Below the pieces are notes generated by a model. That model made no database searches, was not told where the DNA came from, and saw only the letters and a list, made by a program, of their open reading frames with translations. DNA of 64,000 nt from Loxodes magnus (taxonomy: Eukaryota > Ciliophora > Karyorelictea > Loxodida > Loxodidae), in assembly GCA_946699065.1 (NCBI GenBank), contig CAMPDV010000123.1, positions 248,001-312,000 on the forward strand. The letters are read 5' to 3'. Below, in pieces: positions 4,053 through 55,184 of this stretch. The stretch's first letter is position 1, and every line of letters begins with the position of its first letter. Made by a program: the position numbers and the translations under genes.

Positions 4053-4899
4053 AAATTAAAAAGTATAAAAATTAAATTCTAAATAATAGCCAAAAAGGAA
4101 CTATCTAGCCTTCTCTTTTCGAAGATCTGTCTATAAAGATCCCTTTAATTATCTTAGTAGCTTAGTTAATTATATACCTAAAGCATCTATTAAAAATCTA
4201 TTCACTTAGACTTAAAATTCCTAATGTATAAAATTAAATGAATAAGAGATATAAAAGCTTTAGACTCAAGTAGAAGTGTTTAAATTTAATTTATTTTCTT
4301 TTAATTTCTAAGGTAAATTATTAGCCTCAATGTATCTCTTTATTCTATCTAAGATTAAACAAGCAGCTTCAACTTGTAAATCATAAGACAGTCATTGCTT
4401 TTAAAATAAACTGCTTATACACATTAATTTATCAGATAACTAAGATTTATGGAATGGCAATTGAAAGCAGGGATATTATTGACTTATTGAATATATTTAG
4501 GTTTTACTATATCAGCTTTTTTAATAATTAAGCATTAATATAGAATTGATAACATTAAGTATTATGAGAGACAGGAGTTCCTAGACTTATTTTTCTTATA
4601 TGGAAACAAATTTGAAACCTTTATTAATTTGATCTTTCTAAGCTTTAGAATTTACATAGCTATATCTAAGATTAAAAGTTACCTCTTAGTTAGTTTAATT
4701 ACATTCTTAGAAGGTAAAGTAAATTATAATAAAGTAGCATTACTTTTAACTGAGAGATTAGAAGTAAGGAGTTAAATAATCTATTTAGAGACATGCATTT
4801 AATTATGTTTAGATGACTCTTAACTTTAAGTTAAATTTTCATTATTTTCTTTGATTTATGCTATTTAAACCAAATTAACAGTAAGATAGTAATTAATAA
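4053..4899. other. Divergent intergenic region upstream of receptor gene
   Basis: About 850 bp lie between the start of the minus-strand gene and the receptor ATG. The stretch is AT-rich and conserved in all three segment copies with small indels. It is the likely shared promoter region of the two divergent genes. No recognisable core promoter motif can be assigned by eye. Confidence 0.4.
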
Positions 4900-7800
4900 A
4901 TGTTAGTCATGCGAAGCTTGATTTTAGTCCTTGCCTTCAATCTGAGCTTCTGTCTTTACATTGGAATATTAAGTTCCTAGCATACGCCTCCCTTTTTAAA
5001 AGATTTCTTATATGTTTAGATAGCCCACCAGAAAGTAAAAAACATAGAATTTATTCCTATCTCGTATGAGGTTAAGAATCCTCAGGATTTGTAAATAATT
5101 CTCTATAAATGAAGTAAGTAGAAAGTGTAAATGATAATAGACATTACTTATAATTAGATATACACAGGAACTATCTCTAGGATAAACCCCAGTTTCATTA
5201 CCTTAACTGCTTATAGAAACAATTATAAGAAACTCAACAAATTAACTTTCAATATTCTACCAAGCTATGAGTAAGAAGGCTAAGCTCTGGTCACTCTCGT
5301 TGAATATTTTGGCTTCAACAAACTAGCTTTGATTTCTTAGAACGAGAAAAGGTTTTATAGACCTTTAGAAGAATTCAGCTTTACTAGTAGAGTTAAAATA
5401 AAGGCTGATATAAATATTCCTATTGATTCTTTCTGAGGATTAAACTTATAGAGCTGCAATAACTCTTACATACAAGAACGGCTAAATAAAGAATTTCCTA
5501 CTACCATAAGGCTTACAGGAAGTCCAATAATATTATTAGCTGGAGATGTTTGCTGACAAACCTACATTCTATTCGTATCTAGTTTAAACAGATTCACATC
5601 AAAACATTATGCATGGCTTTTATCATTGGAATCCTCTAATCTAATACATCCTGTAATAAATAATTACGTGAAAACCATGCTGTTGCAAAATAAAACTCTA
5701 GACATCCTGAATGAAGGTTTGATTGCCTTAACTCCTTTAGGCTTTCCATTCCAAAGGTATTTAGACTTCACATGGTATTACGTTGCGAAAGCTTTAATGT
5801 CTATAGATACATTAATAGAATACTAAACAAAAGGATCTTTCTTCGATAAATTCTTTAAGCTTAGTAAATATATTTTCAAAGACAATCAAATAGTCCCAGA
5901 CTTTTCAGTTTACAATATGCAAGATAATTAGTTGGTGGAAGTTATTAGAATAATAGGCATGAAGTAGGTTTTTCAGCTTGATAGTATAGTTTGATGTGAA
6001 GGGTCTTTAAGTCCACCTTCTAATTAGCTGTAGATAGAATATAGCTATTCAACCAACAAAAATGAGCCTTATAATATACCAGACTATACTCCAGCTGTAA
6101 TTCAAGCAGAGTTTATTCAGTGTGCTACCTAAAATATCAATAGAACTGGCGAAATAATACCAAGCTATAACTTCAAGGCTAACCCTATATCATATGGCTG
6201 CTTAAAATTTGATGTAGGTCATGTTGTAGATGTGCTGCTTTAAAACAGGTAGAATTTAGGCATAGCACACTTTGGATCGTTAGCATCACTAACTTGATAC
6301 TTTGTCTACAAAGTTCTAGAAAAAGCAGAAGTTCATAATCCTTATTTAATAACGTCAAAAGAGTATTTATATAATGAAACAGATATATACGATAATTTTC
6401 TCAATAACTACGTCTATAATGGCCGCTTTAAATAAGCCATTACCAAGTTTATAGAAAGAAAGGGTTGGAAGAAAATAGGATTATTAGTCTAGAAATCAGA
6501 AATTTGATAAGTTAGAATGCATAGTAGCTTACTAAGATGAGCTTAAGAAAATGATGTTACTATTTAAAACTCAGTAACATACTACTCATTAAATTACACT
6601 GATCAGGAGCGTGAATAGCTAGTCTATAATATTACAAGGGAAATTCTGAAAAAGGAAATAAAAATAATTATACTGATAGTTAATGACATACTCAACCTTA
6701 TGGCCAATTTTATATATGACCTAGGCTACAAGCAAGGAGATATTAATTTCATTACGCTATATCCGAGTTCTCTACTCTTTAATTAGAATATGACCGACGG
6801 TCACATCTTTAGAGTAAAGAAGTTAATATATGGAGCAGTTCTAATAGTCTTAGAAGAGTGAACAGGAGAAGAAGGATAAAGATTGTATTAGATATAGAAA
6901 TAGTGCAATCCTAATAATGAAGTTATTTGTCAAGTACTAGAAATTCCCTATATAATAGCTCATGGAATTTAAAATGCTATCAATTCAGGCCTTGACTATG
7001 GTAGTTCAGAGGACTTAATAAAAAGTATCAGAAAAACAAGATTTTAAGGATGTTCAGGTACAGTTAAATTTGAGCTGGAAAATAACTATAGAGACATATC
7101 AAACTTTCACTTCAAGAATGAGTTATGGAATGAATAAGGTTTTCCTATATAAGTTAATAAGGAGATTTATTGCTTAACCTGTTCAATTGTATGGAATTTT
7201 TAAGGTGATATCGTGTGAAATGATAATTCAACAAAAGTTCCAAATGATAAGTTTGAAAAATACAGCAGTTTATGCGATTTTTCTGAAAGATGGGTTTATG
7301 AGTATGACTGGGGATATCACATAGTAATCATAACAAGCTTTGTTCTACTTCTTATTACTTTGATTTCCTATTTCATTGGATAGAAAATTTGGAAAGGGTT
7401 TAGATTCAAGAATATAACTAAGAAAGACTGGCTAACTGATGAAGATTAGCTATTTACTATGATTCTGGCAATATAAGTAGTTTAGTACTTAGCTCTAGGA
7501 TAAAATTTACAATTTATTCATCCTTATGCAAACGAATCGATAGAAACCACGATTCTTTATATTTATAAACTGATAATATTTCACGAAAGAGCAGCATTCT
7601 GGATTACAAATGAAATACTAATATGCATCGCTGTAATTAGCATCTTCCTCCTGTTCTTCTTCATTTTTAAGTTCGAAATTATTTTCAAAAATAGCTTACT
7701 GAAATATCTTGGATCCCTCTCATTTAATTTCTCTCTATTCATAAATGAAATATTTTTCATTCCAATCATTTATAACTTGTGTCTTACATTTTAATGCCTA

Positions 7801-9183
7801 TATGGAAGAGATAATAACTTAGATGGGGAAATCCAGTTAGAAGAAAGTTTCCACACTTTCGATTGCGGCATGTAATGCTTCTCATTCAAGCATAAAATCA
7901 TTTTTTCTTTTTCTTTCATTATTCTATGCCTCTACATTCCCCTTACTATCCTATCTAGACCCCACTGATAATGCCTTACTGAAAGCTAGCATATAAGAGA
8001 GTAGCCTTACCATATTATTAACAAATCTCTTATACAAATCCTGCTAATTATGACGAACATAACCTTAAAAAAGAAATACCCAAAACCATTTGGCTTCATC
8101 CACGTCTTTTTTATCTTAGTGCTTTTAATATGCGTCAATAGGAAAAAGCCCATAACATACTCCAGATTGAACTTCATTCATTAGACGTTACTATTATTCG
8201 TCTTTATTATCTCTCTATTCAGCTCTATATACATAGCCATAGAAGAGCGTTAAAAAAACCTGCTTATTATCTTATTAAGTAGTGGGCTCTTTCTGACACT
8301 AATCTATGCTATTTTAAGAATCAGGAAATTAAAAGTGCTGCTAAAGTAAATTAAGCCTGATACAGTGAGGCTATTCCGATTTGCATTTAAAATTAACGCT
8401 GATGTGAAATTGCTTGAGTAGCATATAAAAAAACAACAAAAGAGAGTTGAGATTGGAATTAGAAGAATAGAGACAAATATGAAAAGAAACACAGTCTTTA
8501 TTAAAGATAGTGAAAGCTTCGTCTCCTAGCTGTCTAAATTTAAAATGACTAAACTAACTAGTATTTCAAAAGGTTTAGATGCAAGCTAGCTTTCCTTAGA
8601 TTAATCTCAAAATGAACTGGACCTTACTTAAGCAAAGGCTTAAAATTTTTAAATCAAGACCATGGAATAAGTTGAAGGAAATTAAACTAAATTGAAGACT
8701 ATCAAAATAAAATCGATTTCATAGTTAGAAAATATACCCATTGTAGAAGGGTAATTAGAGAGGAATGAAAGCTAATCTTCAAATCTTAGCAAATTATTCA
8801 TGAGTTAGAACGATTCAAGACAATAAATCTTTTAAAATTAAGAGGAAGTTAAAAATGAGTAGGTTAATAAGGAGCTAGTTTGAGAAATTTAGAATATTTA
8901 ATGTCAAAGTCTAAATGAAATAAGGTAAAATTAAAGTTTATAATAAAAAATCAGTTAAAATTAGAAATCTTACCAATATAAAAAGATTTAAAGTAAAGTT
9001 GAAGAAGAAGATAACTTTAAATCAAATGACAGAGAGTTAGATGCAAGCAAAATTGAGGAACAAGAGGAAGATGAAGAAGAGAAAAAGTAAGAGTAAGGAG
9101 AGAATAAAGAATCCAGTGAAGATTAATAAAAAATTCAGAAGATCTTTTAATAAAACCTAGGAAAAAAACTGCCTTTTGATTTA
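4900..9183 (+). CDS. Large receptor-like membrane protein, copy 1
   Basis: The frame opens at ATG 4900 and stays in one frame for 1,428 codons. Residues 1-22 look like a signal peptide. Residues about 430-760 match the type-I periplasmic-binding / ANF-receptor ligand-binding fold, with GWKKIGLLV near 522, CQVLEIPYIIAHGI, and GCSGTVKFELE near 717, the family's usual closing motif. Eight or nine hydrophobic segments follow between about 807 and 1143. Then comes a cytoplasmic tail of about 280 residues, rich in Ser/Gln and ending in a Glu-rich tract. The architecture suggests a plasma-membrane receptor or receptor-channel; the ligand is unknown. Internal Trp are often TGA and Gln often TAA/TAG. 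Copies 2 and 3 end at TGA, but here that codon is TTA (9181-9183) and the next in-frame TGA is 9385-9387, so the protein may be 68 residues longer. It is not a standard seven-helix receptor. Confidence 0.85.
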
Positions 9184-9387
9184 TTTATTACAAAAGAACA
9201 TTTTATCCTATTGTTCGATTTCTTTTTTCTATTCTACAACAAATGTTTTCTTAAAATAAAGTTCCTTTAATCTAATTAATTTTGGTTTTAATAAATAAAT
9301 TAAAAAAGAATGATAAATAGGCTAATTTTAAGACTATTTTTAGTGATAAATTTTAAAATAATCATATGCTAAATAGTGTCTATATGA

Positions 9388-9738
9388 GCTATAGTTTAAT
9401 TATATATTTGATAGATCATTTCACAATCCACTGACAGGAGAATAAAGATAGTAATAATAAATGGAAAATTCTCTTCTGGTGCAAGGAAAACGGGATTCTT
9501 AGTGCTAAGAAATTAAAGATCTTCATTTCTAAATGCCTTTAAAAGCTAGACTTTCATAAAAAGCCTTTGATGATAGCAATTTATTCACTCAGCAGCAATT
9601 TTAGCTTGAATAATAAAATTAACATCTAAAAATAAAAATAAAATCCTCTATCTATAGCTAGATGAATAACAAATATAGTAATCTATTTACTTTATTAAAG
9701 AGCTATATTAATAAACTATTATTGCAGCTAACTTGCAT
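9388..9738. other. Spacer between receptor gene and next gene
   Basis: About 350 bp without a supported gene. It is conserved in all three segment copies, including the string CACAATCCACTGA near 9423. Copy 1 lacks about 35 bases present in copies 2 and 3 near 9470. It probably holds the receptor 3' UTR and the promoter of the following gene. Confidence 0.4.
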
Positions 9739-12400: not shown

Positions 12401-13811
12401 CTTTTTTCCTATATAACTTTTTTCTAGTTTATCTTTCATATAATCTTTTATTATCAAATCAACTTTAGCTTAAAAATCTTCATAGATTCTTATGAATTTC
12501 TCGAATTTTTGTACCTCATGTTATATCAAATAGTTCTCTCTACTCCTATTGTTCTTAGATTTCAAATGCATTTTTATCTCCTTTGTATTCTGAACATTAT
12601 GATATGGTTTTCACTTTCTCTTGCATCATTACAGAAAGAGCTTTGTAGGTATCTTTCTTTTAAGTAATCCTAGCTCCCACTTATTCTAAATATGTAGTAT
12701 ATTTTTTCTATTTTTATTGTATCTTAGTTAGGTGGTCCTACTACATATTCATCATGTTTTTCTATATTGTAATGTTGTTATCATTTACTTCATTCTATCT
12801 TCTACGTATAATCTATATTCTCAATTTGCACAGTTTAATTATTTTTTTTATTATCATCTTTTTGTCCTCAATTCACATTTTATTGCAATTTTATTCAAGT
12901 ATAAAGTTCTCTTCTTTACTTAGGTCCAACATTAATCCGTCTACTGCTTTTTTAGCCTATTAATCTCAACGTTTTCAATCATAGATAATCTTTAAATTTC
13001 GTAAACTACAGTTCATGTTCTAACATCTCATTTTGTACTTAAAAAGGGGCATCTATGATTGTTCGTAAAGATCTTCTCTTTATTATTTCTATCCATCACT
13101 TATTTTCCTACAAATTATTCCTAACATGGGATCACTTCTGTCCCATAACTGAAAACTGACGAAAGTTTTTATCATTATTCCTGCATTATATGTATCCCTT
13201 ATTCATTTTATTTTTCCCAGTATTCGTCTTTACATCTTTTATGCTGCTTCTAGTCTATTCACCATATATTTTTCAAAACTGATGTTCTCTTCTATTATAT
13301 GACCTAGGTACTCTTTCGATCTTTAAATTTCCCACATAGTATTTCCATCTCAGTTACTATTTTATCCTTTATTTTGTTTTATCTCCAATTTCTACTTTTC
13401 TCCCCATGAGGTTAAATTTTCGATTACTTCCTATAATTATTACCTTCACTTTTAAGTCATCTGCTCATGCAAAACTTCCTGCACATATTTCTTATCCCTC
13501 TTTTATAGTCTATCGTAACTTTCTAATCTTCCAAACTATGTCTTGCTACTATCAAGTTAAGGCGATGTTGTTTTATTTGTCGCGAATGATTTTGCTAGTT
13601 AATCATTCATTTTCAGTTTATCTTCTTCTTCACAGTAGAAGTTCGCTAGAAGTTTAATTATCTATTCCGGTACTTTTAGTTTGATTAAGATTTATCCTAT
13701 ATCTTTGCACCGAGTCATAAGCTTTTTTAATATCAACAAATATTACAAAAACATCTTTTTTATTCCGCATTACTCATTCCTTTACTTAGATTTATAGTAA
13801 GCATGATTTTC
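12401..13811 (-). pseudogene. LINE-type reverse transcriptase fragment (first array unit)
   Basis: On the minus strand the unit shows reverse-transcriptase signatures in several frames. FVDIKKAYDSV at about 13741-13708 is RT motif A. FAWADDLK at about 13480-13456 is the catalytic ADD box, with TGA read as Trp. YLGHIIEE at about 13312-13290, GIMIKTFVSFQLW and the terminal CNDARESENHII near 12634-12602 match the thumb and C-terminal Cys/His tail of LINE polymerases. The motifs need frame changes, and the span between motifs A and C is short. This is therefore a decayed, 5'-truncated copy, not an active polymerase. The same fragment recurs in every following unit, and a diverged plus-strand copy lies at 55185-56165. 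Confidence 0.8.
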
Positions 13812-16800
13812 CTTTTTTCCTATATAACTTTTTTCTAGTTTATCTTTCATATAATCTTTTATTATCAAATCAACTTTAGCTTAAAAATCTTCATAGATTC
13901 TTATGAATTTCTCGAATTTTTGTACCTCATGTTATATCAAATAGTTCTCTCTACTCCTATTGTTCTTAGATTTCAAATGCATTTTTATCTCCTTTGTATT
14001 CTGAACATTATGATATGGTTTTCACTTTCTCTTGCATCATTACAGAAAGAGCTTTGTAGGTATCTTTCTTTTAAGTAATCCTAGCTCCCACTTATTCTAA
14101 ATATGTAGTATATTTTTTCTATTTTTATTGTATCTTAGTTAGGTGGTCCTACTACATATTCATCATGTTTTTCTATATTGTAATGTTGTTATCATTTACT
14201 TCATTCTATCTTCTACGTATAATCTATATTCTCAATTTGCACAGTTTAATTATTTTTTTTATTATCATCTTTTTGTCCTCAATTCACATTTTATTGCAAT
14301 TTTATTCAAGTATAAAGTTCTCTTCTTTACTTAGGTCCAACATTAATCCGTCTACTGCTTTTTTAGCCTATTAATCTCAACGTTTTCAATCATAGATAAT
14401 CTTTAAATTTCGTAAACTACAGTTCATGTTCTAACATCTCATTTTGTACTTAAAAAGGGGCATCTATGATTGTTCGTAAAGATCTTCTCTTTATTATTTC
14501 TATCCATCACTTATTTTCCTACAAATTATTCCTAACATGGGATCACTTCTGTCCCATAACTGAAAACTGACGAAAGTTTTTATCATTATTCCTGCATTAT
14601 ATGTATCCCTTATTCATTTTATTTTTCCCAGTATTCGTCTTTACATCTTTTATGCTGCTTCTAGTCTATTCACCATATATTTTTCAAAACTGATGTTCTC
14701 TTCTATTATATGACCTAGGTACTCTTTCGATCTTTAAATTTCCCACATAGTATTTCCATCTCAGTTACTATTTTATCCTTTATTTTGTTTTATCTCCAAT
14801 TTCTACTTTTCTCCCCATGAGGTTAAATTTTCGATTACTTCCTATAATTATTACCTTCACTTTTAAGTCATCTGCTCATGCAAAACTTCCTGCACATATT
14901 TCTTATCCCTCTTTTATAGTCTATCGTAACTTTCTAATCTTCCAAACTATGTCTTGCTACTATCAAGTTAAGGCGATGTTGTTTTATTTGTCGCGAATGA
15001 TTTTGCTAGTTAATCATTCATTTTCAGTTTATCTTCTTCTTCACAGTAGAAGTTCGCTAGAAGTTTAATTATCTATTCCGGTACTTTTAGTTTGATTAAG
15101 ATTTATCCTATATCTTTGCACCGAGTCATAAGCTTTTTTAATATCAACAAATATTACAAAAACATCTTTTTTATTCCGCATTACTCATTCCTTTACTTAG
15201 ATTTATAGTAAGCATGATTTTCCTTTTTTCCTATATAACTTTTTTCTAGTTTATCTTTCATATAATCTTTTATTATCAAATCAACTTTAGCTTAAAAATC
15301 TTCATAGATTCTTATGAATTTCTCGAATTTTTGTACCTCATGTTATATCAAATAGTTCTCTCTACTCCTATTGTTCTTAGATTTCAAATGCATTTTTATC
15401 TCCTTTGTATTCTGAACATTATGATATGGTTTTCACTTTCTCTTGCATCATTACAGAAAGAGCTTTGTAGGTATCTTTCTTTTAAGTAATCCTAGCTCCC
15501 ACTTATTCTAAATATGTAGTATATTTTTTCTATTTTTATTGTATCTTAGTTAGGTGGTCCTACTACATATTCATCATGTTTTTCTATATTGTAATGTTGT
15601 TATCATTTACTTCATTCTATCTTCTACGTATAATCTATATTCTCAATTTGCACAGTTTAATTATTTTTTTTATTATCATCTTTTTGTCCTCAATTCACAT
15701 TTTATTGCAATTTTATTCAAGTATAAAGTTCTCTTCTTTACTTAGGTCCAACATTAATCCGTCTACTGCTTTTTTAGCCTATTAATCTCAACGTTTTCAA
15801 TCATAGATAATCTTTAAATTTCGTAAACTACAGTTCATGTTCTAACATCTCATTTTGTACTTAAAAAGGGGCATCTATGATTGTTCGTAAAGATCTTCTC
15901 TTTATTATTTCTATCCATCACTTATTTTCCTACAAATTATTCCTAACATGGGATCACTTCTGTCCCATAACTGAAAACTGACGAAAGTTTTTATCATTAT
16001 TCCTGCATTATATGTATCCCTTATTCATTTTATTTTTCCCAGTATTCGTCTTTACATCTTTTATGCTGCTTCTAGTCTATTCACCATATATTTTTCAAAA
16101 CTGATGTTCTCTTCTATTATATGACCTAGGTACTCTTTCGATCTTTAAATTTCCCACATAGTATTTCCATCTCAGTTACTATTTTATCCTTTATTTTGTT
16201 TTATCTCCAATTTCTACTTTTCTCCCCATGAGGTTAAATTTTCGATTACTTCCTATAATTATTACCTTCACTTTTAAGTCATCTGCTCATGCAAAACTTC
16301 CTGCACATATTTCTTATCCCTCTTTTATAGTCTATCGTAACTTTCTAATCTTCCAAACTATGTCTTGCTACTATCAAGTTAAGGCGATGTTGTTTTATTT
16401 GTCGCGAATGATTTTGCTAGTTAATCATTCATTTTCAGTTTATCTTCTTCTTCACAGTAGAAGTTCGCTAGAAGTTTAATTATCTATTCCGGTACTTTTA
16501 GTTTGATTAAGATTTATCCTATATCTTTGCACCGAGTCATAAGCTTTTTTAATATCAACAAATATTACAAAAACATCTTTTTTATTCCGCATTACTCATT
16601 CCTTTACTTAGATTTATAGTAAGCATGATTTTCCTTTTTTCCTATATAACTTTTTTCTAGTTTATCTTTCATATAATCTTTTATTATCAAATCAACTTTA
16701 GCTTAAAAATCTTCATAGATTCTTATGAATTTCTCGAATTTTTGTACCTCATGTTATATCAAATAGTTCTCTCTACTCCTATTGTTCTTAGATTTCAAAT

Positions 16801-19800
16801 GCATTTTTATCTCCTTTGTATTCTGAACATTATGATATGGTTTTCACTTTCTCTTGCATCATTACAGAAAGAGCTTTGTAGGTATCTTTCTTTTAAGTAA
16901 TCCTAGCTCCCACTTATTCTAAATATGTAGTATATTTTTTCTATTTTTATTGTATCTTAGTTAGGTGGTCCTACTACATATTCATCATGTTTTTCTATAT
17001 TGTAATGTTGTTATCATTTACTTCATTCTATCTTCTACGTATAATCTATATTCTCAATTTGCACAGTTTAATTATTTTTTTTATTATCATCTTTTTGTCC
17101 TCAATTCACATTTTATTGCAATTTTATTCAAGTATAAAGTTCTCTTCTTTACTTAGGTCCAACATTAATCCGTCTACTGCTTTTTTAGCCTATTAATCTC
17201 AACGTTTTCAATCATAGATAATCTTTAAATTTCGTAAACTACAGTTCATGTTCTAACATCTCATTTTGTACTTAAAAAGGGGCATCTATGATTGTTCGTA
17301 AAGATCTTCTCTTTATTATTTCTATCCATCACTTATTTTCCTACAAATTATTCCTAACATGGGATCACTTCTGTCCCATAACTGAAAACTGACGAAAGTT
17401 TTTATCATTATTCCTGCATTATATGTATCCCTTATTCATTTTATTTTTCCCAGTATTCGTCTTTACATCTTTTATGCTGCTTCTAGTCTATTCACCATAT
17501 ATTTTTCAAAACTGATGTTCTCTTCTATTATATGACCTAGGTACTCTTTCGATCTTTAAATTTCCCACATAGTATTTCCATCTCAGTTACTATTTTATCC
17601 TTTATTTTGTTTTATCTCCAATTTCTACTTTTCTCCCCATGAGGTTAAATTTTCGATTACTTCCTATAATTATTACCTTCACTTTTAAGTCATCTGCTCA
17701 TGCAAAACTTCCTGCACATATTTCTTATCCCTCTTTTATAGTCTATCGTAACTTTCTAATCTTCCAAACTATGTCTTGCTACTATCAAGTTAAGGCGATG
17801 TTGTTTTATTTGTCGCGAATGATTTTGCTAGTTAATCATTCATTTTCAGTTTATCTTCTTCTTCACAGTAGAAGTTCGCTAGAAGTTTAATTATCTATTC
17901 CGGTACTTTTAGTTTGATTAAGATTTATCCTATATCTTTGCACCGAGTCATAAGCTTTTTTAATATCAACAAATATTACAAAAACATCTTTTTTATTCCG
18001 CATTACTCATTCCTTTACTTAGATTTATAGTAAGCATGATTTTCCTTTTTTCCTATATAACTTTTTTCTAGTTTATCTTTCATATAATCTTTTATTATCA
18101 AATCAACTTTAGCTTAAAAATCTTCATAGATTCTTATGAATTTCTCGAATTTTTGTACCTCATGTTATATCAAATAGTTCTCTCTACTCCTATTGTTCTT
18201 AGATTTCAAATGCATTTTTATCTCCTTTGTATTCTGAACATTATGATATGGTTTTCACTTTCTCTTGCATCATTACAGAAAGAGCTTTGTAGGTATCTTT
18301 CTTTTAAGTAATCCTAGCTCCCACTTATTCTAAATATGTAGTATATTTTTTCTATTTTTATTGTATCTTAGTTAGGTGGTCCTACTACATATTCATCATG
18401 TTTTTCTATATTGTAATGTTGTTATCATTTACTTCATTCTATCTTCTACGTATAATCTATATTCTCAATTTGCACAGTTTAATTATTTTTTTTATTATCA
18501 TCTTTTTGTCCTCAATTCACATTTTATTGCAATTTTATTCAAGTATAAAGTTCTCTTCTTTACTTAGGTCCAACATTAATCCGTCTACTGCTTTTTTAGC
18601 CTATTAATCTCAACGTTTTCAATCATAGATAATCTTTAAATTTCGTAAACTACAGTTCATGTTCTAACATCTCATTTTGTACTTAAAAAGGGGCATCTAT
18701 GATTGTTCGTAAAGATCTTCTCTTTATTATTTCTATCCATCACTTATTTTCCTACAAATTATTCCTAACATGGGATCACTTCTGTCCCATAACTGAAAAC
18801 TGACGAAAGTTTTTATCATTATTCCTGCATTATATGTATCCCTTATTCATTTTATTTTTCCCAGTATTCGTCTTTACATCTTTTATGCTGCTTCTAGTCT
18901 ATTCACCATATATTTTTCAAAACTGATGTTCTCTTCTATTATATGACCTAGGTACTCTTTCGATCTTTAAATTTCCCACATAGTATTTCCATCTCAGTTA
19001 CTATTTTATCCTTTATTTTGTTTTATCTCCAATTTCTACTTTTCTCCCCATGAGGTTAAATTTTCGATTACTTCCTATAATTATTACCTTCACTTTTAAG
19101 TCATCTGCTCATGCAAAACTTCCTGCACATATTTCTTATCCCTCTTTTATAGTCTATCGTAACTTTCTAATCTTCCAAACTATGTCTTGCTACTATCAAG
19201 TTAAGGCGATGTTGTTTTATTTGTCGCGAATGATTTTGCTAGTTAATCATTCATTTTCAGTTTATCTTCTTCTTCACAGTAGAAGTTCGCTAGAAGTTTA
19301 ATTATCTATTCCGGTACTTTTAGTTTGATTAAGATTTATCCTATATCTTTGCACCGAGTCATAAGCTTTTTTAATATCAACAAATATTACAAAAACATCT
19401 TTTTTATTCCGCATTACTCATTCCTTTACTTAGATTTATAGTAAGCATGATTTTCCTTTTTTCCTATATAACTTTTTTCTAGTTTATCTTTCATATAATC
19501 TTTTATTATCAAATCAACTTTAGCTTAAAAATCTTCATAGATTCTTATGAATTTCTCGAATTTTTGTACCTCATGTTATATCAAATAGTTCTCTCTACTC
19601 CTATTGTTCTTAGATTTCAAATGCATTTTTATCTCCTTTGTATTCTGAACATTATGATATGGTTTTCACTTTCTCTTGCATCATTACAGAAAGAGCTTTG
19701 TAGGTATCTTTCTTTTAAGTAATCCTAGCTCCCACTTATTCTAAATATGTAGTATATTTTTTCTATTTTTATTGTATCTTAGTTAGGTGGTCCTACTACA

Positions 19801-21234
19801 TATTCATCATGTTTTTCTATATTGTAATGTTGTTATCATTTACTTCATTCTATCTTCTACGTATAATCTATATTCTCAATTTGCACAGTTTAATTATTTT
19901 TTTTATTATCATCTTTTTGTCCTCAATTCACATTTTATTGCAATTTTATTCAAGTATAAAGTTCTCTTCTTTACTTAGGTCCAACATTAATCCGTCTACT
20001 GCTTTTTTAGCCTATTAATCTCAACGTTTTCAATCATAGATAATCTTTAAATTTCGTAAACTACAGTTCATGTTCTAACATCTCATTTTGTACTTAAAAA
20101 GGGGCATCTATGATTGTTCGTAAAGATCTTCTCTTTATTATTTCTATCCATCACTTATTTTCCTACAAATTATTCCTAACATGGGATCACTTCTGTCCCA
20201 TAACTGAAAACTGACGAAAGTTTTTATCATTATTCCTGCATTATATGTATCCCTTATTCATTTTATTTTTCCCAGTATTCGTCTTTACATCTTTTATGCT
20301 GCTTCTAGTCTATTCACCATATATTTTTCAAAACTGATGTTCTCTTCTATTATATGACCTAGGTACTCTTTCGATCTTTAAATTTCCCACATAGTATTTC
20401 CATCTCAGTTACTATTTTATCCTTTATTTTGTTTTATCTCCAATTTCTACTTTTCTCCCCATGAGGTTAAATTTTCGATTACTTCCTATAATTATTACCT
20501 TCACTTTTAAGTCATCTGCTCATGCAAAACTTCCTGCACATATTTCTTATCCCTCTTTTATAGTCTATCGTAACTTTCTAATCTTCCAAACTATGTCTTG
20601 CTACTATCAAGTTAAGGCGATGTTGTTTTATTTGTCGCGAATGATTTTGCTAGTTAATCATTCATTTTCAGTTTATCTTCTTCTTCACAGTAGAAGTTCG
20701 CTAGAAGTTTAATTATCTATTCCGGTACTTTTAGTTTGATTAAGATTTATCCTATATCTTTGCACCGAGTCATAAGCTTTTTTAATATCAACAAATATTA
20801 CAAAAACATCTTTTTTATTCCGCATTACTCATTCCTTTACTTAGATTTATAGTAAGCATGATTTTCCTTTTTTCCTATATAACTTTTTTCTAGTTTATCT
20901 TTCATATAATCTTTTATTATCAAATCAACTTTAGCTTAAAAATCTTCATAGATTCTTATGAATTTCTCGAATTTTTGTACCTCATGTTATATCAAATAGT
21001 TCTCTCTACTCCTATTGTTCTTAGATTTCAAATGCATTTTTATCTCCTTTGTATTCTGAACATTATGATATGGTTTTCACTTTCTCTTGCATCATTACAG
21101 AAAGAGCTTTGTAGGTATCTTTCTTTTAAGTAATCCTAGCTCCCACTTATTCTAAATATGTAGTATATTTTTTCTATTTTTATTGTATCTTAGTTAGGTG
21201 GTCCTACTACATATTCATCATGTTTTTCTATATT
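12401..21234 (-). repeat. Tandem array of 1,411-bp LINE-fragment units (6.26 copies)
   Basis: Six full units start at 12401, 13812, 15223, 16634, 18045 and 19456, and a partial unit spans 20867-21234. The total of 8,834 bp equals 6 x 1,411 + 368. Units look identical on reading. Read on the minus strand each unit is a reverse-transcriptase fragment of a non-LTR retrotransposon. The array sits between the inner ends of the two inverted gene segments. The last partial unit breaks off inside the RT C-terminal region. Confidence 0.95.
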
Positions 21235-22810: not shown

Positions 22811-25800
22811 TCAATCCGAAGGCAGCATTTTTCCAGATTTTATTTCGAATTCTTCTGAATTTTTTTCCTAATCTTCACTGGATTCTTTGTTCTCCCCTTA
22901 TTCTTACTTTTCCTCTTCTTCTTCTTCATCTTCATCTTCATCTTCGACTTCTTCTTATTCTTCATCTTCATCTTCATCTTCCTTTTTATCTTCCTCTTGT
23001 TCCTCAATTTTGCTTGCATCTAACTCTCTGTCATTTGATTTAAAGTTATCTTCTTCCTCAACTTTACTTTAGATCTCTTTGGATTCCAAAGATTTCTAAC
23101 TTTGACTGATTTCTTATTATAAGCTTTCATTTTACTCTATTTCATTTGGATTTTAACTTTAAATATGCTAAATTTCATAAATTAGCTCCTCATTAGCCTA
23201 ATCGCTTTTAGCTTCCTCTTAGTTTTAAAAGATTTATTGGCTTGAATCGTTCTAACTTAAATATGATTTGCTAAGATTTGAAGATTAGCTTTCTTTCCTC
23301 TCTAATTACTCTTCTACAATGGGTATATTTTCTAACTATGAAATCGATATTTTTTTTAAAGACTTCAATCTAGTTTAATTTCCTTCAACTTTATCCATGG
23401 TCTTATTTTAAAAACGTCAAGTCTTTGTTTATGTAAAATCCAGTTCATTTTGAGATAAATCAAAGGAAGCCTAGCTTGTTTCTACACCTTTTGAAATGCT
23501 AGTAAGTTTAGTTATTTTAAATTTAGACAACTAGGAGACGAAGCTTTCACTATCATTAATGAAGATTGGATTCTTTTTCATATTTTTCTTTATTCTTCTA
23601 ATCCCAATCTCAACTCTCTTTTGTTGGTTTTTTATATGCTACTCAAGCAATTTCACATCAGCGTTAATTTTAAATGCAAATCTGAATAGCCTAACTGTAT
23701 CAGTTTCGATTTCCTACAGCAGCTCTCTTAATTTTCTGATTCTTAGAATAGCATAGATTAGAGTCAGAAAGATTCCACTACTTAATAAGGCTATAAGCAA
23801 GTATTTTTAACGCTCTTCTATGGCTATGTATATAGAGCTGAATAGAGAGATAATAAAGACGAATGATAGTAACGTCTAATGAATGAAGTTCAATCTGGAG
23901 TATGTTATGGGCTTTTTCCTTTGGACGCATATTAAAAGCACTAAGATAAAAAAGACGTGGATAAAGCCAAAGGTTTTTGGGTATTTCTTTTTTAAGGTTA
24001 TGTTTGTCATAATTAGCAGGATTTGTATAAGAGATTTGTTAATAATATGGTAAGGCTACTCTCTTATATGCTAGCTTTCAGTAAGGCATTATCAGTGGGG
24101 TCTAGATAGAATAGTAAGAGGAATGTAGAGGCATAGAACAATGAAAGAAAAAGAAAAAATTACTTTATGATTGAATGAGAAACATTACATGTTGCAATCG
24201 AAAGTATGAAAACTCTCTTCCAACTGGATTTCTCCATCTAAATTATTATCTCTTCCATATAGGCATTAAAATGTAAGGCACAAGTTATAAATGATTGGAA
24301 TGAAGAATATTTCATTTATGAGTAGAGAGAAATTAAATGAGAGGGATCCAAGATACTTCAGTAAGCTATTTTTGAAATTAATTTCGAACTTAAAAATGAA
24401 GGAAAACAAGAGGAAGATGCTAATTACAGCGATGCATATTAGTATTTCATTTACCATCCAGAATGCTGCTCTTTTTCGAAATGTTATCAATTTATAAATA
24501 TCAAGAATTGCGACTTCTATCGAGACGTTTGCATAAGGATGAATAAACTGTAAATTTTATCCTAGAGCTAAATATTAAACTACTTATATAGCCAGAATCA
24601 TAGTAAATACCTAATCTTCATCAGTTAGCCAGTCTTTCTTAGTTATATTCTTGAATCTAAACCCTTTCCAAATTTTCTATCCAAAGAAATAGGAAATCAA
24701 AGCAATAAGAAGTATAGCACAGCTTGTTATGATTACTATATTATATCCCATTTCATAGTCTTCAATCCATCTTTCAGAAAAATCGCATAAACTGTTGTAT
24801 TTTTCAAACTTATCTTTTGGCACTTTTGTTGAATTATCATTTCACACGATATCACCTTAAAAATTCCATACAATTGAACAGGTTAAGCAATAAATCTCCT
24901 TATTAACTTATATAGGAAAACCTTATTCATTCCATAACTCATTCTTGAAGTGAAAGCTTGATATATCTCTATAGTTAGTTTCCAGCTCAAATTTAACTGT
25001 ACCTGAACATCCTTAAAACCTTGTTTTTCTGATACTTTTTATTAAGTCCTCTGAACTACCATAGTCAAGGCCTGAATTGATAGCATTTTAAATTCCATGA
25101 GCTATTATATAGGGAATTTCTAGTACTTGACAAATAACTTCATTATTAGGATTGCACTATTTCTATATCTAATACAATCTTTATCCTTCTTCTCCTGTTC
25201 ACTCTTCTAGGATTATTAGAACTGCTCCATATATTAACTTCTTTACTCTAAAGATATGATCGTCAGTCATATTCTAATTAAAGAGTAGAGAACTCGGATA
25301 TAGCGTAATGAAATTAATATCTCCTTGCTTGTAGCCTAGGTCATATATAAAATTAGCCATAAGGTTGAGTATGTCATTAACTATCAGTATAATTATTTTT
25401 ATTTCCTTTTTCAGAATTTCCCTTGTAATGTTAAAGACTAGCTATTCACGCTCTTGATCAGTGTAGTTTAATTAGTAGTATGTTACTGAGTTTTAAATAG
25501 TAACATCATTTTCTTAAGCTCATCTTAGTAAGTCACTATGCATTTTAATTTATGAAAGTTCTGATTTCTAGACTAATAATCCTATTTTCTTCCAACCCTT
25601 TCTTTCTATAAACTTGGTAATGGCTTATGTAAAGCGGCCATTATAGACGTAGTTATTGAGAACATTATCGTATATATCTGTTTCATTATATAAATACTCT
25701 TTCGATGTTATTAAATAAGGATTATGAACTTCTGCTTATTCTAGAACTTTGTAGACAAAGTATCAAGTTAATATTGCTAACGATCCAAAGTGTGCTATGC

Positions 25801-27160
25801 CTAAATTCTACTTGTTTTAAAGCAGCACATCTACAACATGACCTAAATCAAATTTTAAGCAGCCATATGATATAGGGTTAGCCTTGAAGTTATAGCTTGG
25901 TATTATTTCGCCAGTTTTATTGATATTTTAGGTAGCACATTAAATAAACTCTGCTTGAATTACAGCTGGAGTATAGTCTGGTAGATTATAAGGCTCATTT
26001 TTGTTGGTTGAATAGCTATATTCTATCTACAGCTAATTAGAAGGTGGACTTAAAGACCCTTCACATCAAACTATACTATCCAGCTGAAAAACCTACTTCA
26101 TGCCTATTATTCTAATAACTTCCACCAACTAATTATCTTGCATATTGTAAACTGAAAAGTCTGGGACTATTTGATTGTCTTTGAAAATATATTTACTAAG
26201 CTTAAAGAATTTATCGAAGAAAGATCCTTTTGTTTAGTATTCTATTAATGTATCTATAGACATTAAAGCTTTCGCAACGTAATACCATGTGAAGTCTAAA
26301 TACCTTTGGAATGGAAAGCCTAAAGGAGTTAAGGCAATCAAGCCTTCATTCAGGATGTCTAGAGTTTTATTTTGCAACAGCATGGTTTTCACATAATTAT
26401 TTATTACAGGATGTATTAGATTAGAGGATTCCAATGATAAAAGCCATGCATAATGTTTTGAAGTGAATCTGTTTAAAGTAGATACGAATAGAATGTAAGT
26501 TTGCCAGCAAACATCTCCAGCTAATAATATTATTGGACTTCCTGTAAGCCTTATGCTAGTAGGAAATTCTTTATTTAGCCGTTCTTGTATGTAAGAGTTA
26601 TTGCAGCTCTATAAGTTTAATCCTCAGAAAGAATCAATAGGAATATTTATATCAGCCTTTATTTTAACTCTACTAGTAAAGCTGAATTCTTCTAAAGGTC
26701 TATAAAACCTTTTCTCGTTCTAAGAAATCAAAGCTAGTTTGTTGAAGCCAAAATATTCAACGAGAGTGACCAGAGCTTAGCCTTCTTACTCATAGCTTGG
26801 TAGAATATTGAAAGTTACTTTGTTGAGTTTCTTATAATTGTTTCTATAAGCAGTTAAGGTAATGAAACTGGGGTTTATCTTAGAGATAGCTCCTGTGTAT
26901 ATCTAATTATAAGTAATGTCTATTATCATTTACACTTTCTACTTACTTCATTTATAGAGAATTATTTATAAATCCTGAGGATTCTTAATCTCATATGGGA
27001 TAGGAATAAATTCTATGTTTTTTAGTTTCTGGTGGGCTATCTAAACATATAAGAAATCTTTTAAAAATGGAGGCGTATGCTAGGAACTTAATATTCCAAT
27101 GTAAACGCAGAAGCTCAGATTGAAGGCAAGGACTAAAATCAAAATTCGCATGACCGACAT
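22811..27160 (-). CDS. Large receptor-like membrane protein, copy 2
   Basis: The frame starts at the ATG complementary to 27158-27160 (MSVMRIL) and ends at a TGA at 22813-22811, giving 1,449 residues. The layout matches copy 1: signal peptide, extracellular region with an ANF-receptor / periplasmic-binding-type ligand domain, eight or nine membrane segments, and a long Ser/Gln-rich tail. The extra length compared with copies 1 and 3 lies mainly in an expanded Asp/Glu tract near the C-terminus. One codon that is TGA in copy 1 (5554) is TGG here. The unbroken frame over 4,350 bases argues for a working gene. TGA is taken as the stop because copy 3 shares it and sequence similarity weakens after it. 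Confidence 0.85.
22905..23010 (-). repeat. Expanded acidic-codon microsatellite in receptor tail
   Basis: On the plus strand this is a run of CTTCTT/CATCTT-type triplets. On the coding strand it encodes alternating Asp and Glu. Copies 1 (about 9001-9090) and 3 (about 63055-63140) have shorter versions, so the tract has expanded by in-frame triplet or hexamer slippage. The plus-strand Ser-rich frame over it is a shadow. Confidence 0.75.
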
Positions 27161-34902: not shown

Positions 34903-35888
34903 ATTTAATGAACTAGGCGAATACCAAAAGCAGTCATTGTAGTATTTGATTTCTTTATCAGAATTATCAATATAAGCTTTTTCTGATAAGTAATTTACGA
35001 AGAGAAAAATAAAACCTAATATATATAAGATTGAAACACAAATTTATAAATACTTCTAAAAATATTTAGCGTCAGGTGCAGTACTGAGTCCTAAACAGCT
35101 ATGCAGTCCATTAGAAATAGTTATCATTGTAGTGAAAAGCGAACAAAAATTGTTACTGATATAAAGGCTACATTCAGTTTGTAGACAAGATTGTTTATAA
35201 CTGAGATACGAATCCTATTCAACTTAAAATGTAAGCTAGCAATATATAGAAGAATAGCTAATTTAGGACAGTATTCATGGAATTTATTGAGACTGTATAT
35301 AAAATATAAAGAGGTTTAGAAGTAAAATAATAATGAAGAATTAAAGGCTTAAAATAATGTAAGCATCTAATTTAGAATGGCTAATATTAAAGTTATAAAC
35401 AGAATAATTAAAATAGATTCTCATATCAAGATAAAATACAATAGTAAAAATTAAAGCCCAAAAAATAAAAAACTCAGAATTTAGAAATTACATCAGAAGT
35501 CTTAAAAGCTAACTAGCTAGAAGAAAATGACAAGCATTGTCTTAGTTAGACAATATCATTCATAAAGTAGTTGAATTAAAATTCAGTGATTTAATTACCG
35601 AGTCTAATCCAAAAATACAAGCTTTATTATAAAATCCAGAGTAGGTGGCTTTACAATACGTTCTTGATGATAAATGAAGATTAAAATAAAATTATATACT
35701 TATAAAGCTTAGTTTAATATATAAATAACGCTGCTTGTAATTTATTTAAAAATGCTTTTATTTAAGACTTTAGATTATATTTAGCAAACTAAAGCTCATC
35801 AATAAAATAAATTAGAAAGATGAACGCATGATTTAAGGCAATTTATTATATATATATTAAAAAATAGTTAACTTCATAACAATTTTTA
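34903..35888. other. Region between two retroelement ORF1-like genes
   Basis: More than one frame gives protein-like text here, for example HKVVELKFSDLITESNPK at about 35560-35615. Because all frames are open I cannot choose between them, and no polymerase or endonuclease motif is visible. It may be decayed retroelement sequence. Confidence 0.4.
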
Positions 35889-37066
35889 TAACACCTCCCC
35901 AGAGTAGGAGAGAAAACCTGAAGCACTTTTTTCTACCACATCTTCGCTGTAATTAGTCTAATCTTCTTTATTACGAATGGAGACCCAGATTCATAACAAA
36001 AACACTCAAACTACACAGAACCAAATTCACTGCTCGAAGAAATATGATATAATAATACATTCAACGGAAAAAGGATATCAATATATCTATGATTGGACAG
36101 ACTTCACTAAAAGGAGGAGCATAAAATAAGAAAGGAATAAAGTGGTTAAAAAAGTACACAACCTAAGTAATAATTTAACAATAGAATGAGCAACTTATTT
36201 CAGCCGACGTCCCTGAAAACTAAATGGTAAGAGTTTATTAAAATACCTATGATGATCTATCAGATATGGTGGTCGCAGTTTATTTTAACCGCTATCTGGA
36301 AATCACTGATTTAGTAGAGATAAAGACAATAGACTAAGAAATGATACAAGTTTTAGAAACTAAATATGGAGCAAGTACGGACAAGCAGTGAAAAATTCAT
36401 CGTCAAAAAAACTGAATAGTATATTTGTTCTTCAATAATAAAGAAAGATACTAGTAGTTCGCTTAATTCATTGAATGAACATTCTAAGATGTTAGATTTT
36501 CTATCTAAGCAAGAAATTAATTAGAATACTTTGACATTCCTAACTATCCAGTTTACTTCATAATAAACAAATATTAAAGCATGAAGGAAGTAATGGAAAA
36601 AATGAGGTAACATGGAAAATCTAGAGGAGAGATATAGCATACATACTCAAACACTACAATGTTAGCAGGTAGCAGTGTAGTATACTTAGATTCAAAGGAT
36701 ATAGACAAAGAAAAAGAGGATACCAGAAGTAATAGAACTGAACGGAAACAATATGAGAATGCAGCACCCAGTAAATTTTATCTGGTGCCTATGCAAATTG
36801 AAAGGGCACACAGACCAACAAAGCAGAAGGGGAGAAACAGCAAAAGGAAAAAGACACATACAAGAGAATTAGAGATGTTTGAAGGAGAAGTTAAATTAAC
36901 AATAGATAAACCAAATTTAAAAGCAAATCAAGCAAATAAAAGAATAATTGAAGAAGAAGAGTAAAAAATTATAGAGGAAACAAGGGAAAAAGAGAAGGAA
37001 ATAAAACGAGGAGAATAGAAAATAATTATAACAACTATGCAATTAAAAATAATTTTTTTTTTGTGA
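35889..37066 (+). pseudogene. Second ORF1-like retroelement gene (one frameshift)
   Basis: The 5' part carries TSPEQERKPEA followed by a Thr/Ser-rich stretch, as at 33868. After about 36180 the coding frame changes. From ATG 36224 to TGA 37064-37066 one frame reads well. It has MVRVYQNTYDDLSD, then WIVYLFFNNKERYQQFAQF near residue 67 that resembles an RRM-like RNA-binding strand-helix, then a strongly basic region (36830-36860) and a Glu-rich coiled-coil end. This arrangement is typical of LINE ORF1 proteins. The endonuclease remnant of a LINE follows on the same strand. Confidence 0.5.
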
Positions 37067-38340: not shown

Positions 38341-39093
38341 AAATCGGAAAAGAAGTGTGAAAACAAGTAAGCTATAAAAATAAATTACATATTATAAAAG
38401 AAAAAAGAGATATAAGAAAAATTTAAAAGGTTTTAAAAAGTAAATAAAATTGCCGAACTAAAAGGTAGATTGTCTTATAAGAGATGAAAATAAAATTTAA
38501 GATTAAGTTCAGATGGCATGCGGAAATGTTAGCATTAAAACGTTAAGATATAAAAAATCTCAGATATAAAAAAAGAATAATAAATCTATCAGTTTATGTA
38601 GCTAACATAAAAAAAAAGAAGAATAAATTTAGCTAAAAATTACAAAATAATAGGAAAATAAAGAAGTAAAATATATAATAAATTAAAAAAAAGAAAATGA
38701 AGAAAAAAAAACAAAAACTTTTTTAATATGTTAAAGTGAAAAAAAAGAACAATAAAAGCGAAAAACGTTCTAATAGAAAATATATAGAATACAAATAGAA
38801 AAAACGAAATCAAGCATCATATGAAAATAAATAAAAAATATGATAAAAAAAAACAAAAAATTAAAAATATTTAGAACAAAAAAAAAAAGATAAAATTAAA
38901 AAAAAGTAGGAAAAAAGAACGACGAAAAGAAAATTCAATTAAAAAATTAAAAAAAACCTAAATGTAAACATCAAAAAAGATTCTTCGGAAATTAAAAAAA
39001 AAAATATTCTTGAAGTAGAGAGTAAAGTATCAATGAATAAAAAAAAGTAAACTAAACATCTTATTTAAAGAAAAATCTAAATTTATAACTTAA
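38341..39093 (+). other. Extremely A-rich left flank of the satellite
   Basis: The plus strand is dominated by A with scattered G (poly-A and AAAAAG runs), a purine bias that flips to pyrimidine bias at the satellite boundary. No gene supported. It could be decayed LINE sequence downstream of the endonuclease. Confidence 0.5.
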
Positions 39094-42000
39094 TCACTCA
39101 CTCTGATATTAAAATTTCGAATTCTCACTTCAAAAACTATGCTTTTTTCCTTTCAAATATTCACCTACTTTTTTTCATACTTTGTTCACTCACTCTGATA
39201 TTAAAATTTCGTATTCTCACTTCAAAAACTATGCTTTTTTCCTTTCAAATATTCACCTACTTTTTTTCATACTTTGTTCACTCACTCTGATATTAAAATT
39301 TCGTATTCTCACTTCAAAAACTATGCTTTTTTCCTTTCAAATATTCACCTACTTTTTTTCATACTTTGTTCACTCACTCTGATATTAAAATTTCGTATTC
39401 TCACTTCAAAAACTATGCTTTTTTCCTTTCAAATATTCACCTACTTTTTTTCATACTTTGTTCACTCACTCTGATATTAAAATTTCGTATTCTCACTTCA
39501 AAAACTATGCTTTTTTCCTTTCAAATATTCACCTACTTTTTTTCATACTTTGTTCACTCACTCTGATATTAAAATTTCGTATTCTCACTTCAAAAACTAT
39601 GCTTTTTTCCTTTCAAATATTCACCTACTTTTTTTCATACTTTGTTCACTCACTCTGATATTAAAATTTCGTATTCTCACTTCAAAAACTATGCTTTTTT
39701 CCTTTCAAATATTCACCTACTTTTTTTCATACTTTGTTCACTCACTCTGATATTAAAATTTCGTATTCTCACTTCAAAAACTATGCTTTTTTCCTTTCAA
39801 ATATTCACCTACTTTTTTTCATACTTTGTTCACTCACTCTGATATTAAAATTTCGTATTCTCACTTCAAAAACTATGCTTTTTTCCTTTCAAATATTCAC
39901 CTACTTTTTTTCATACTTTGTTCACTCACTCTGATATTAAAATTTCGTATTCTCACTTCAAAAACTATGCTTTTTTCCTTTCAAATATTCACCTACTTTT
40001 TTTCATACTTTGTTCACTCACTCTGATATTAAAATTTCGTATTCTCACTTCAAAAACTATGCTTTTTTCCTTTCAAATATTCACCTACTTTTTTTCATAC
40101 TTTGTTCACTCACTCTGATATTAAAATTTCGTATTCTCACTTCAAAAACTATGCTTTTTTCCTTTCAAATATTCACCTACTTTTTTTCATACTTTGTTCA
40201 CTCACTCTGATATTAAAATTTCGTATTCTCACTTCAAAAACTATGCTTTTTTCCTTTCAAATATTCACCTACTTTTTTTCATACTTTGTTCACTCACTCT
40301 GATATTAAAATTTCGTATTCTCACTTCAAAAACTATGCTTTTTTCCTTTCAAATATTCACCTACTTTTTTTCATACTTTGTTCACTCACTCTGATATTAA
40401 AATTTCGTATTCTCACTTCAAAAACTATGCTTTTTTCCTTTCAAATATTCACCTACTTTTTTTCATACTTTGTTCACTCACTCTGATATTAAAATTTCGT
40501 ATTCTCACTTCAAAAACTATGCTTTTTTCCTTTCAAATATTCACCTACTTTTTTTCATACTTTGTTCACTCACTCTGATATTAAAATTTCGTATTCTCAC
40601 TTCAAAAACTATGCTTTTTTCCTTTCAAATATTCACCTACTTTTTTTCATACTTTGTTCACTCACTCTGATATTAAAATTTCGTATTCTCACTTCAAAAA
40701 CTATGCTTTTTTCCTTTCAAATATTCACCTACTTTTTTTCATACTTTGTTCACTCACTCTGATATTAAAATTTCGTATTCTCACTTCAAAAACTATGCTT
40801 TTTTCCTTTCAAATATTCACCTACTTTTTTTCATACTTTGTTCACTCACTCTGATATTAAAATTTCGTATTCTCACTTCAAAAACTATGCTTTTTTCCTT
40901 TCAAATATTCACCTACTTTTTTTCATACTTTGTTCACTCACTCTGATATTAAAATTTCGTATTCTCACTTCAAAAACTATGCTTTTTTCCTTTCAAATAT
41001 TCACCTACTTTTTTTCATACTTTGTTCACTCACTCTGATATTAAAATTTCGTATTCTCACTTCAAAAACTATGCTTTTTTCCTTTCAAATATTCACCTAC
41101 TTTTTTTCATACTTTGTTCACTCACTCTGATATTAAAATTTCGTATTCTCACTTCAAAAACTATGCTTTTTTCCTTTCAAATATTCACCTACTTTTTTTC
41201 ATACTTTGTTCACTCACTCTGATATTAAAATTTCGTATTCTCACTTCAAAAACTATGCTTTTTTCCTTTCAAATATTCACCTACTTTTTTTCATACTTTG
41301 TTCACTCACTCTGATATTAAAATTTCGTATTCTCACTTCAAAAACTATGCTTTTTTCCTTTCAAATATTCACCTACTTTTTTTCATACTTTGTTCACTCA
41401 CTCTGATATTAAAATTTCGTATTCTCACTTCAAAAACTATGCTTTTTTCCTTTCAAATATTCACCTACTTTTTTTCATACTTTGTTCACTCACTCTGATA
41501 TTAAAATTTCGTATTCTCACTTCAAAAACTATGCTTTTTTCCTTTCAAATATTCACCTACTTTTTTTCATACTTTGTTCACTCACTCTGATATTAAAATT
41601 TCGTATTCTCACTTCAAAAACTATGCTTTTTTCCTTTCAAATATTCACCTACTTTTTTTCATACTTTGTTCACTCACTCTGATATTAAAATTTCGTATTC
41701 TCACTTCAAAAACTATGCTTTTTTCCTTTCAAATATTCACCTACTTTTTTTCATACTTTGTTCACTCACTCTGATATTAAAATTTCGTATTCTCACTTCA
41801 AAAACTATGCTTTTTTCCTTTCAAATATTCACCTACTTTTTTTCATACTTTGTTCACTCACTCTGATATTAAAATTTCGTATTCTCACTTCAAAAACTAT
41901 GCTTTTTTCCTTTCAAATATTCACCTACTTTTTTTCATACTTTGTTCACTCACTCTGATATTAAAATTTCGTATTCTCACTTCAAAAACTATGCTTTTTT

Positions 42001-54912: not shown

Positions 54913-55184
54913 TGCTGTCTTTTTGCAAATAAATAGGATAACAACAATCATTCTTTAATTATTTAATTAAATTTATTAACTGCAAACCATCTTCTACAGC
55001 GAAATTGAAAAAATATTAAATTTTAACTTATCAAAAAATGCTCTTCAAGATTAATAAATTCTACAATTTTTACTTTAATGTATCATAACGTATCTTGAAT
55101 TCAGAAAGATACTATAGACCATTAAAACAAAATTGAAGACAATTATGTGCTATGTTTTGCAGAAACAATGGACTAAATAAGTTT
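54913..55184. other. Right flank of the satellite
   Basis: AT-rich, with no gene or repeat seen. It separates the satellite from the LINE reverse-transcriptase tail. Confidence 0.45.

Follow-up and report, generated by a model that had tools for sequence, protein, structure and literature searches.

The codes that come closest to the one met here are the karyorelict code, which is reportedly to be credited to Seah and colleagues (2022) as table 27, the Condylostoma code (table 28) and the Blastocrithidia code (table 31). The karyorelict code, which matters because a single codon is read in two ways within the same genome, is already in print for Loxodes and karyorelicts in passages of two papers (PMC4967479, 2016; PMC11441545, 2024), and the check reported here confirms it. 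In excerpts of the second paper, the macronuclear (MAC) assembly of Loxodes magnus is described as 706 Mbp in size and rich in tandem repeats, and NCBI table 27 is used with UGA as the sole stop. The Condylostoma magnum code, as given in excerpts of PMC4967479, assigns the same sense meanings to the three codons. Gln tRNAs that read UAA and UAG were found there and no tRNA-Trp(UCA) was detected, as in the pattern searches of the present genome. In Condylostoma, all three codons also terminate. The Blastocrithidia code is alike in that TGA encodes Trp with a tRNA-Trp(CCA) bearing a 4-bp stem, whereas TAR (TAA or TAG) encodes Glu and UAA is the stop in that organism (PMC12153298, in part).

Our main reading, to which we give a probability of about 0.96, is that the locus comprises ordinary karyorelict coding sequence of the L. 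magnus macronuclear genome under NCBI table 27, in which TAA and TAG encode Gln, and TGA is read as Trp within genes and as a stop at their ends. The sense meanings rest on an alignment of 19 receptors, on the DxW column of protein kinases and on TAA codons for Gln in the eRF1 genes. The locus resembled table 27 in TAR read as Gln, in TGA read as Trp inside genes, and in TGA at the gene ends read here. No clear departure from that code was found, and the five eRF1 and HSP70 genes that were read lacked a depletion of TAA close to their ends.

The window, i.e., the whole stretch of 64,000 nucleotides that was analysed, corresponds to CAMPDV010000123.1:248,001–312,000 in an assembly of 705,730,643 bases and 7843 contigs, and the same assembly was used for the genome searches. 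It carries three copies of a receptor gene. Copy 1 lies at 4900–9183 on the forward strand (4284 bases, 11 in-frame TGA), copy 2 is inverted and lies at 22811–27160 on the reverse strand (4350 bases), and copy 3 lies at 58954–63231 on the forward strand (4278 bases). The earlier note on this DNA had given frames of 4,278, 4,284 and 4,350 bases, which is correct for copies 3, 1 and 2, respectively. With positions 4501–9600 as BLAST query, copy 2 was matched at 27556–22371 on the minus strand with 91.6% DNA identity, and copy 3 at 58556–63666 with 93.4%. A coding-potential scan, trained on copy 1 and run without the satellite array at 39000–55000, picked up the three receptors plus a single further stretch at 35807–37036.

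The Pfam family PF01094 (ANF_receptor) was found above cut-off in all three copies, with E-values of 3e-20, 2.6e-17 and 3.3e-16 for copies 1, 2 and 3, respectively, and it covered residues 408–731 of copy 1. A second ANF_receptor match, below cut-off, was located at residues 110–161 of copy 3 in a scan of the first 399 residues, and the family was also found in two of the four paralogues scanned. Hydropathy revealed a signal-like segment at residues 6–24 and about seven peaks between residues 808 and 1148. An ANF_receptor ligand-binding region followed by about seven hydrophobic segments is also the layout of class C GPCRs; unlike these, no 7tm_3 match was obtained in the three copies, in a separate segment of copy 3 or in the four paralogues. 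The receptors would therefore resemble class C GPCRs in layout, and no membership is claimed. The three genes are recent copies within a large receptor family of the ANF_receptor type. A PDB sequence search with the copy-1 protein gave only two matches (E 0.52 and 0.55), which were not used, and a literature search on this receptor family found nothing for Loxodes among the papers listed.

A TGA, the candidate stop codon, ended copy 2 (22811–22813), copy 3 (63229–63231), both eRF1 genes and two of the three HSP70 genes. The third HSP70 gene (L064) ended with TAA followed directly by TGA, and its relative L066 has TGA at that place. In these seven genes, the first in-frame TGA past the conserved part was taken as the end, a procedure that would miss TAA or TAG ends. 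TGA thus appears to be a terminator too, which is consistent with the gene ends and is partly assumed by the way in which they were located; it would terminate translation at the gene ends examined. The earlier note had spoken of all three stops as reassigned. That was right for their sense meanings, but TGA apparently kept its role as terminator as well, as the ends of copies 2 and 3 indicate. In copy 1, the conserved end TGA is replaced by TTA at 9181–9183, the next in-frame TGA is at 9385–9387, and single-base indels occur near the end. Past the lost TGA, copy 1 has either gained a longer C-terminus or begun to decay, and this change from TGA to TTA might serve as a natural test case.

Upstream of the end TGA, the nearest TGA, TAA and TAG were 403, 29 and 19 codons away in copy 3, and 202, 29 and 19 codons away in copy 2. 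Coding UGA and UAA, though not UAG, are described as depleted in about the last 20 codons in excerpts of PMC11441545. The distances in copies 2 and 3 are in line with this, although sense TGA near an end cannot be judged wherever the first TGA sets that end. For TAA, the other five genes did not follow it: each eRF1 gene has a TAA 14 codons from its end, and the three HSP70 genes have one at a distance of 1, 18 and 20 codons. The base following a sense TGA was unbiased: A, C, G and T had frequencies of 0.38, 0.12, 0.22 and 0.28 among 239 TGA cells of the receptor alignment, compared with 0.37, 0.12, 0.21 and 0.30 after all codons. The absence of a bias at position +4 is as expected under a model, set out in excerpts of PMC4967479, in which the codon is read as sense by default and termination would be decided by the transcript end.

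Under the Condylostoma code, TAA and TAG would be stops at transcript ends as well. In favour of that code, its sense meanings are identical, one HSP70 gene has TAA directly before its TGA, and gene ends that are located via TGA are blind to TAA and TAG ends. No gene end that requires TAA or TAG as a stop was found by this method, which would miss such ends. Against that code, TGA stands at a plausible end of copies 2 and 3 and of both eRF1 genes, and UGA is the only stop in the published L. magnus analysis, in the parts of PMC11441545 that treat it. The karyorelict type is preferred because of that published analysis and because the only TAA found right at a gene end directly precedes a TGA, and we regard the Condylostoma code as very improbable for this genome. 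Of the two types that the earlier note had left side by side, the karyorelict attribution was correct, and the Condylostoma type is not separated from it by the present data.

The meaning of the codons inside genes had been deduced earlier from swaps between the three copies. At codon 219, copy 1 has TGA (5554–5556) and copy 3 has TGG (59608–59610), as does copy 2; at codon 407, copy 1 has CAG (6118–6120) and copy 3 has TAA (60172–60174). Both swaps exist exactly at these coordinates. The assignments drawn from them, TGA to Trp and TAA/TAG to Gln, were right, but the swaps among three copies are too few and too mixed to show it. In the codon-by-codon alignment that the earlier note had proposed, 226 of 1387 ungapped codons varied. 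TGA was present in 12 columns, eight of them invariant, and TAA and TAG were invariant in 36 and 30 columns, respectively. Only one of the four variable TGA columns contained TGG (TGA/TGG/TGG, TGA/TCA/TCA, TAA/TGA/TAA and TGA/TAT/TAA in the order of the copies). The 18 variable TAR columns comprised three with CAR, one with TAA/TAG, six with AAR, three with GAR and five with other codons.

Data sets matching this alignment in size were simulated. Under the true code they gave on average 0.39 TGA/TGG columns out of 2.5 and 3.75 TAR/CAR columns out of 23.5; when each stop codon formed a class of its own, the averages were 0.21 out of 2.2 and 2.2 out of 20.3. The swaps among the three copies are no more frequent than chance would give. 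In a codon model of the three copies, giving TGA other residues shifted the log-likelihood by only +0.03 to −0.62; Lys for TAR jointly was 0.87 log units above Gln, and another meaning for TAA alone or TAG alone was up to 2.0 or 2.2 log units higher. This test on the three copies did not distinguish Trp or Gln from other residues. Of 100 data sets simulated with the true code, and with seven candidates for each meaning, 17 ranked Trp first and 44 ranked Gln first; the numbers fell to 10 and 14 when each stop codon had its own class. The preference for other TAR meanings means little, because true-code simulations of this size often fail to recover Trp or Gln. As a proof of the code, the three-copy swaps were therefore discarded: column counts, likelihoods and simulations all left them uninformative. 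Codon 407 is a weak site for assigning TAA because it lies in a variable column that is mostly Pro in the paralogues. The lesson is that a codon assignment is impossible from swaps between near-identical copies.

If the copies were pseudogenes, their in-frame TGA, TAA and TAG would be disabling mutations. TAR codons that align with many different amino acids had been named beforehand as the sign of this, and the three copies look bad in that respect: their TAR and TGA columns align with several amino acids, the omega of 0.59 is high, and copy 1 has the altered end described above. We read the mixed TAR partners as relaxed constraint, in line with that omega, and not as a wrong code. An omega of 1 was worse by 7.3 log units in the codon model, and the copies have therefore been under some purifying selection. 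By region, omega was 0.37 (residues 1–400), 0.60 (401–735), 0.48 (736–1150) and 0.82 (1151–1387); by copy, it was 0.55 (copy 1), 0.62 (copy 2) and 0.65 (copy 3). Decay is further contradicted by the 33 family members listed, each of which carries 8–20 in-frame TGA, by the position of TGA at Trp columns across the paralogues, and by eRF1 itself, whose two genes contain 20–21 in-frame TAR, one of them at the glutamine of GGQ. Pseudogenes are even less probable than a Condylostoma code.

The reading as ordinary coding sequence under table 27 draws its main evidence from the wider family. When the genome was searched with the copy-3 protein, 34 matches were listed, i.e., 33 family members (one partial) and a 40-codon piece of copy 2. 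The family has at least 33 members and may be larger, 33 having been scored out of 2704 first-look candidates. The three copies were aligned with 16 members, picked for diversity from the 30 that lie elsewhere in the genome, and stop-type codons were masked as X; this alignment of 19 receptors contains 24,226 codons. Trp accounted for 50.4% of the partner weight of the 239 TGA cells, 80.7 times the background, and for 53.3% of that of the 142 TGG cells. Cys was absent from the eight commonest partners of TGA. Gln made up 16.5% for TAA (814 cells, 779 with partners; 8.2-fold enriched), 17.2% for TAG (433 cells, 420 with partners; 8.6-fold) and 21.2% for CAR (456 cells, 445 with partners; 10.6-fold), and Lys and Glu were the next partners after Gln for all three alike. 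Judged by their partners, TGA aligns as TGG does, and TAR as CAR does.

Seven columns, at copy-1 codons 219, 523, 547, 765, 773, 901 and 1023, had TGG or TGA and no other codon in every one of the 19 rows. Codon 219 was TGG in nine and TGA in seven of the 16 paralogues, with nothing else. Conserved columns, in which at least 90% of the standard codons specify one residue, numbered 154. Of the 46 TGA in them, 45 were at Trp and one was at Tyr; 17 of 34 TAR were at two Gln columns, and the others were at Lys (7), Tyr (4), Leu (3), Glu (2) and Ser (1). Four of the 12 TGA columns of the window (219, 547, 773 and 1023) had only TGG or TGA in the 16 paralogues, three (365, 466 and 654) had TGG/TGA mixed with Tyr and Phe, and five (71, 179, 536, 1248 and 1328) had no TGG in any of them. 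Column 71 comprised four TGA and 12 Leu, Met or Ile; column 179 had Tyr, Phe, Leu and Pro; column 536 had one TGA and otherwise Ser, Ala and Tyr. This demonstration of the code through paralogues within one gene family is a modest addition to the published work.

The same pattern was found in unrelated genes. At least one TGA was present in 91 of 136 scored kinase matches (from 5592 first-look candidates), of which 15 were sampled, 11 with TGA and four without. In DxW, which we take to be a conserved kinase motif and whose Trp column was scored, 11 of the 15 kinases had TGG and four had TGA. Over all columns, the partners were Trp at 60.5% for 15 TGA cells and at 73.9% for 32 TGG cells, and four of the 15 TGA cells lay in three columns without any TGG. 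Lys and Glu exceeded Gln as partners of TAR in this small set of 15 kinases, and likewise as partners of CAR. A residue other than Trp for TGA, be it Cys, as in Euplotes, or a skipped codon, has a negligible chance: the three-copy likelihood is compatible with it and five of the 12 window TGA columns lack TGG in the paralogues, but Trp is matched by TGA and TGG cells alike, Cys is no common partner, and TGA shares the DxW column with TGG.

In both eRF1 genes (L010 and L011), TAA encodes the Gln of GGQ and that of FGTLQGN, which we take to be eRF1 motifs. A TGA was reached after DEDFL at codon 437, and about 437 residues is presumably the expected length of eRF1. Each gene has four TGG and no TGA before its end. 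The two genes lie about 35 kb apart on contig 196, and both have RA-Gln(TAA)-NIKS and FLCENTF at sites where TASNIKS and YxCxxxF are presumably usual. These unusual surroundings of NIKS and FLCENTF are possibly linked to altered stop-codon recognition. The top match to eRF1_1 in the genome (L009, contig 2) resembled Pelota/Dom34 more than eRF1, a name that we assume from its motifs.

The earlier note had also pointed to tRNA genes with UUA, CUA and UCA anticodons. The first two were found; the UCA pattern had seven matches, and none was called in the six loci cut. In a pattern search of the genome, ARAGORN called a tRNA with anticodon UUA in all four loci scanned (of eight cut) and one with anticodon CUA in all three loci. 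Five paired anticodon-stem positions were present in the five UUA/CUA tRNAs read, with one T-G pair counted, in a UUA tRNA. From their resemblance, and in keeping with the literature, these tRNAs would carry Gln. The Gln anticodon-stem pattern had 261 matches vs. 19 for its reversal. The first UUA and CUA patterns had 11 and 4 matches (4 and 0 reversed), and no tRNA with such an anticodon was found in the six loci cut. ARAGORN found no tRNA in the window. An Rfam tRNA search, in which 63 of 42,786 first-look candidates were scored, led to only tRNA-Lys and tRNA-Ala when ARAGORN was run on 23 of 30 loci.

The Trp tRNA pattern had 127 genome matches, compared with none for the reversed pattern. 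Among the matches listed, one was on contig 12 without an ARAGORN call, and the others belonged to arrays of identical letters on contigs 67 and 148. ARAGORN called tRNA-Trp(CCA). Five overlapping loci in the array on contig 67 had an A.C mismatch at 27:43 and formed the other four pairs, giving a 4-bp anticodon stem; this reading covers the contig 67 array, and the contig 148 copies were read without their 5′ half. The tRNA-Lys control had all five anticodon-stem pairs. A tRNA-Trp(CCA) with a 4-bp stem has already been reported in Loxodes in excerpts of PMC13092985 and PMC12005148, with reference to Swart et al., and the former also cites readthrough assays for Blastocrithidia and Condylostoma tRNAs. 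By analogy with this literature, the short-stem tRNA-Trp(CCA) would read UGA, and eRF1 would beat the tRNA only near the transcript end. The tRNA-Trp(CCA) genes form long tandem arrays with spacings of about 187 bp and about 241 bp (L059–L063 on contig 67; contig 148).

For tRNA-Trp(UCA), a single pattern with seven matches (two reversed) was used; ARAGORN made no call in the six loci cut, and a differently built tRNA would escape this pattern. The six loci L067–L072, on contigs 444, 558, 561, 594 and 921, resemble tRNAs and are almost identical to one another; UCA occupies their anticodon position and ARAGORN does not call them, so that they are perhaps degenerate tRNA-derived repeats.

The share of TGA among Trp codons differed between gene classes. 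Of the 381 Trp codons in the 19 receptors, 239 (63%) were TGA, compared with none of the 13 in the five eRF1 and HSP70 genes, counted up to the first TGA. Fisher's test gave p = 4e-6, a value that is overstated because paralogues lack independence and the count in those five genes stopped at the first TGA. In an independent count that read through TGA, 32 of 33 HSP70 matches covering at least 590 of 599 positions had no TGA and one had two; some shorter HSP70 matches had one to six. We tentatively suggest, from codon counts, that how often the ambiguous codon is used might be adjusted to expression level or to the class of protein. If so, the share of sense TGA would be a readout of the cost of the competition between the short-stem tRNA-Trp and eRF1. 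Reassigned codons are avoided in highly expressed genes of Blastocrithidia, according to excerpts of PMC12153298. The term "codon usage" is absent from the main text of PMC11441545, the only paper checked for Loxodes codon usage.

The HSP70 genes and HSP70-like pieces are organized in tandem arrays on contigs 45, 86 and 854. The pieces on contig 854 with weaker matches contain six TGA each and are perhaps pseudogenes.

Two repeat structures were also observed in the window. A tandem array of a 92-bp repeat occupies about 15.8 kb at 39094–54912 and displays a strong strand asymmetry, with a GC skew of about −0.68. At 12401–21166, seven copies of a unit are spaced at exactly 1411 bp, and a 300-bp reference stretch was 100% identical in all seven. 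These 1411-bp units are pyrimidine-rich on the forward strand and have little three-base periodicity.
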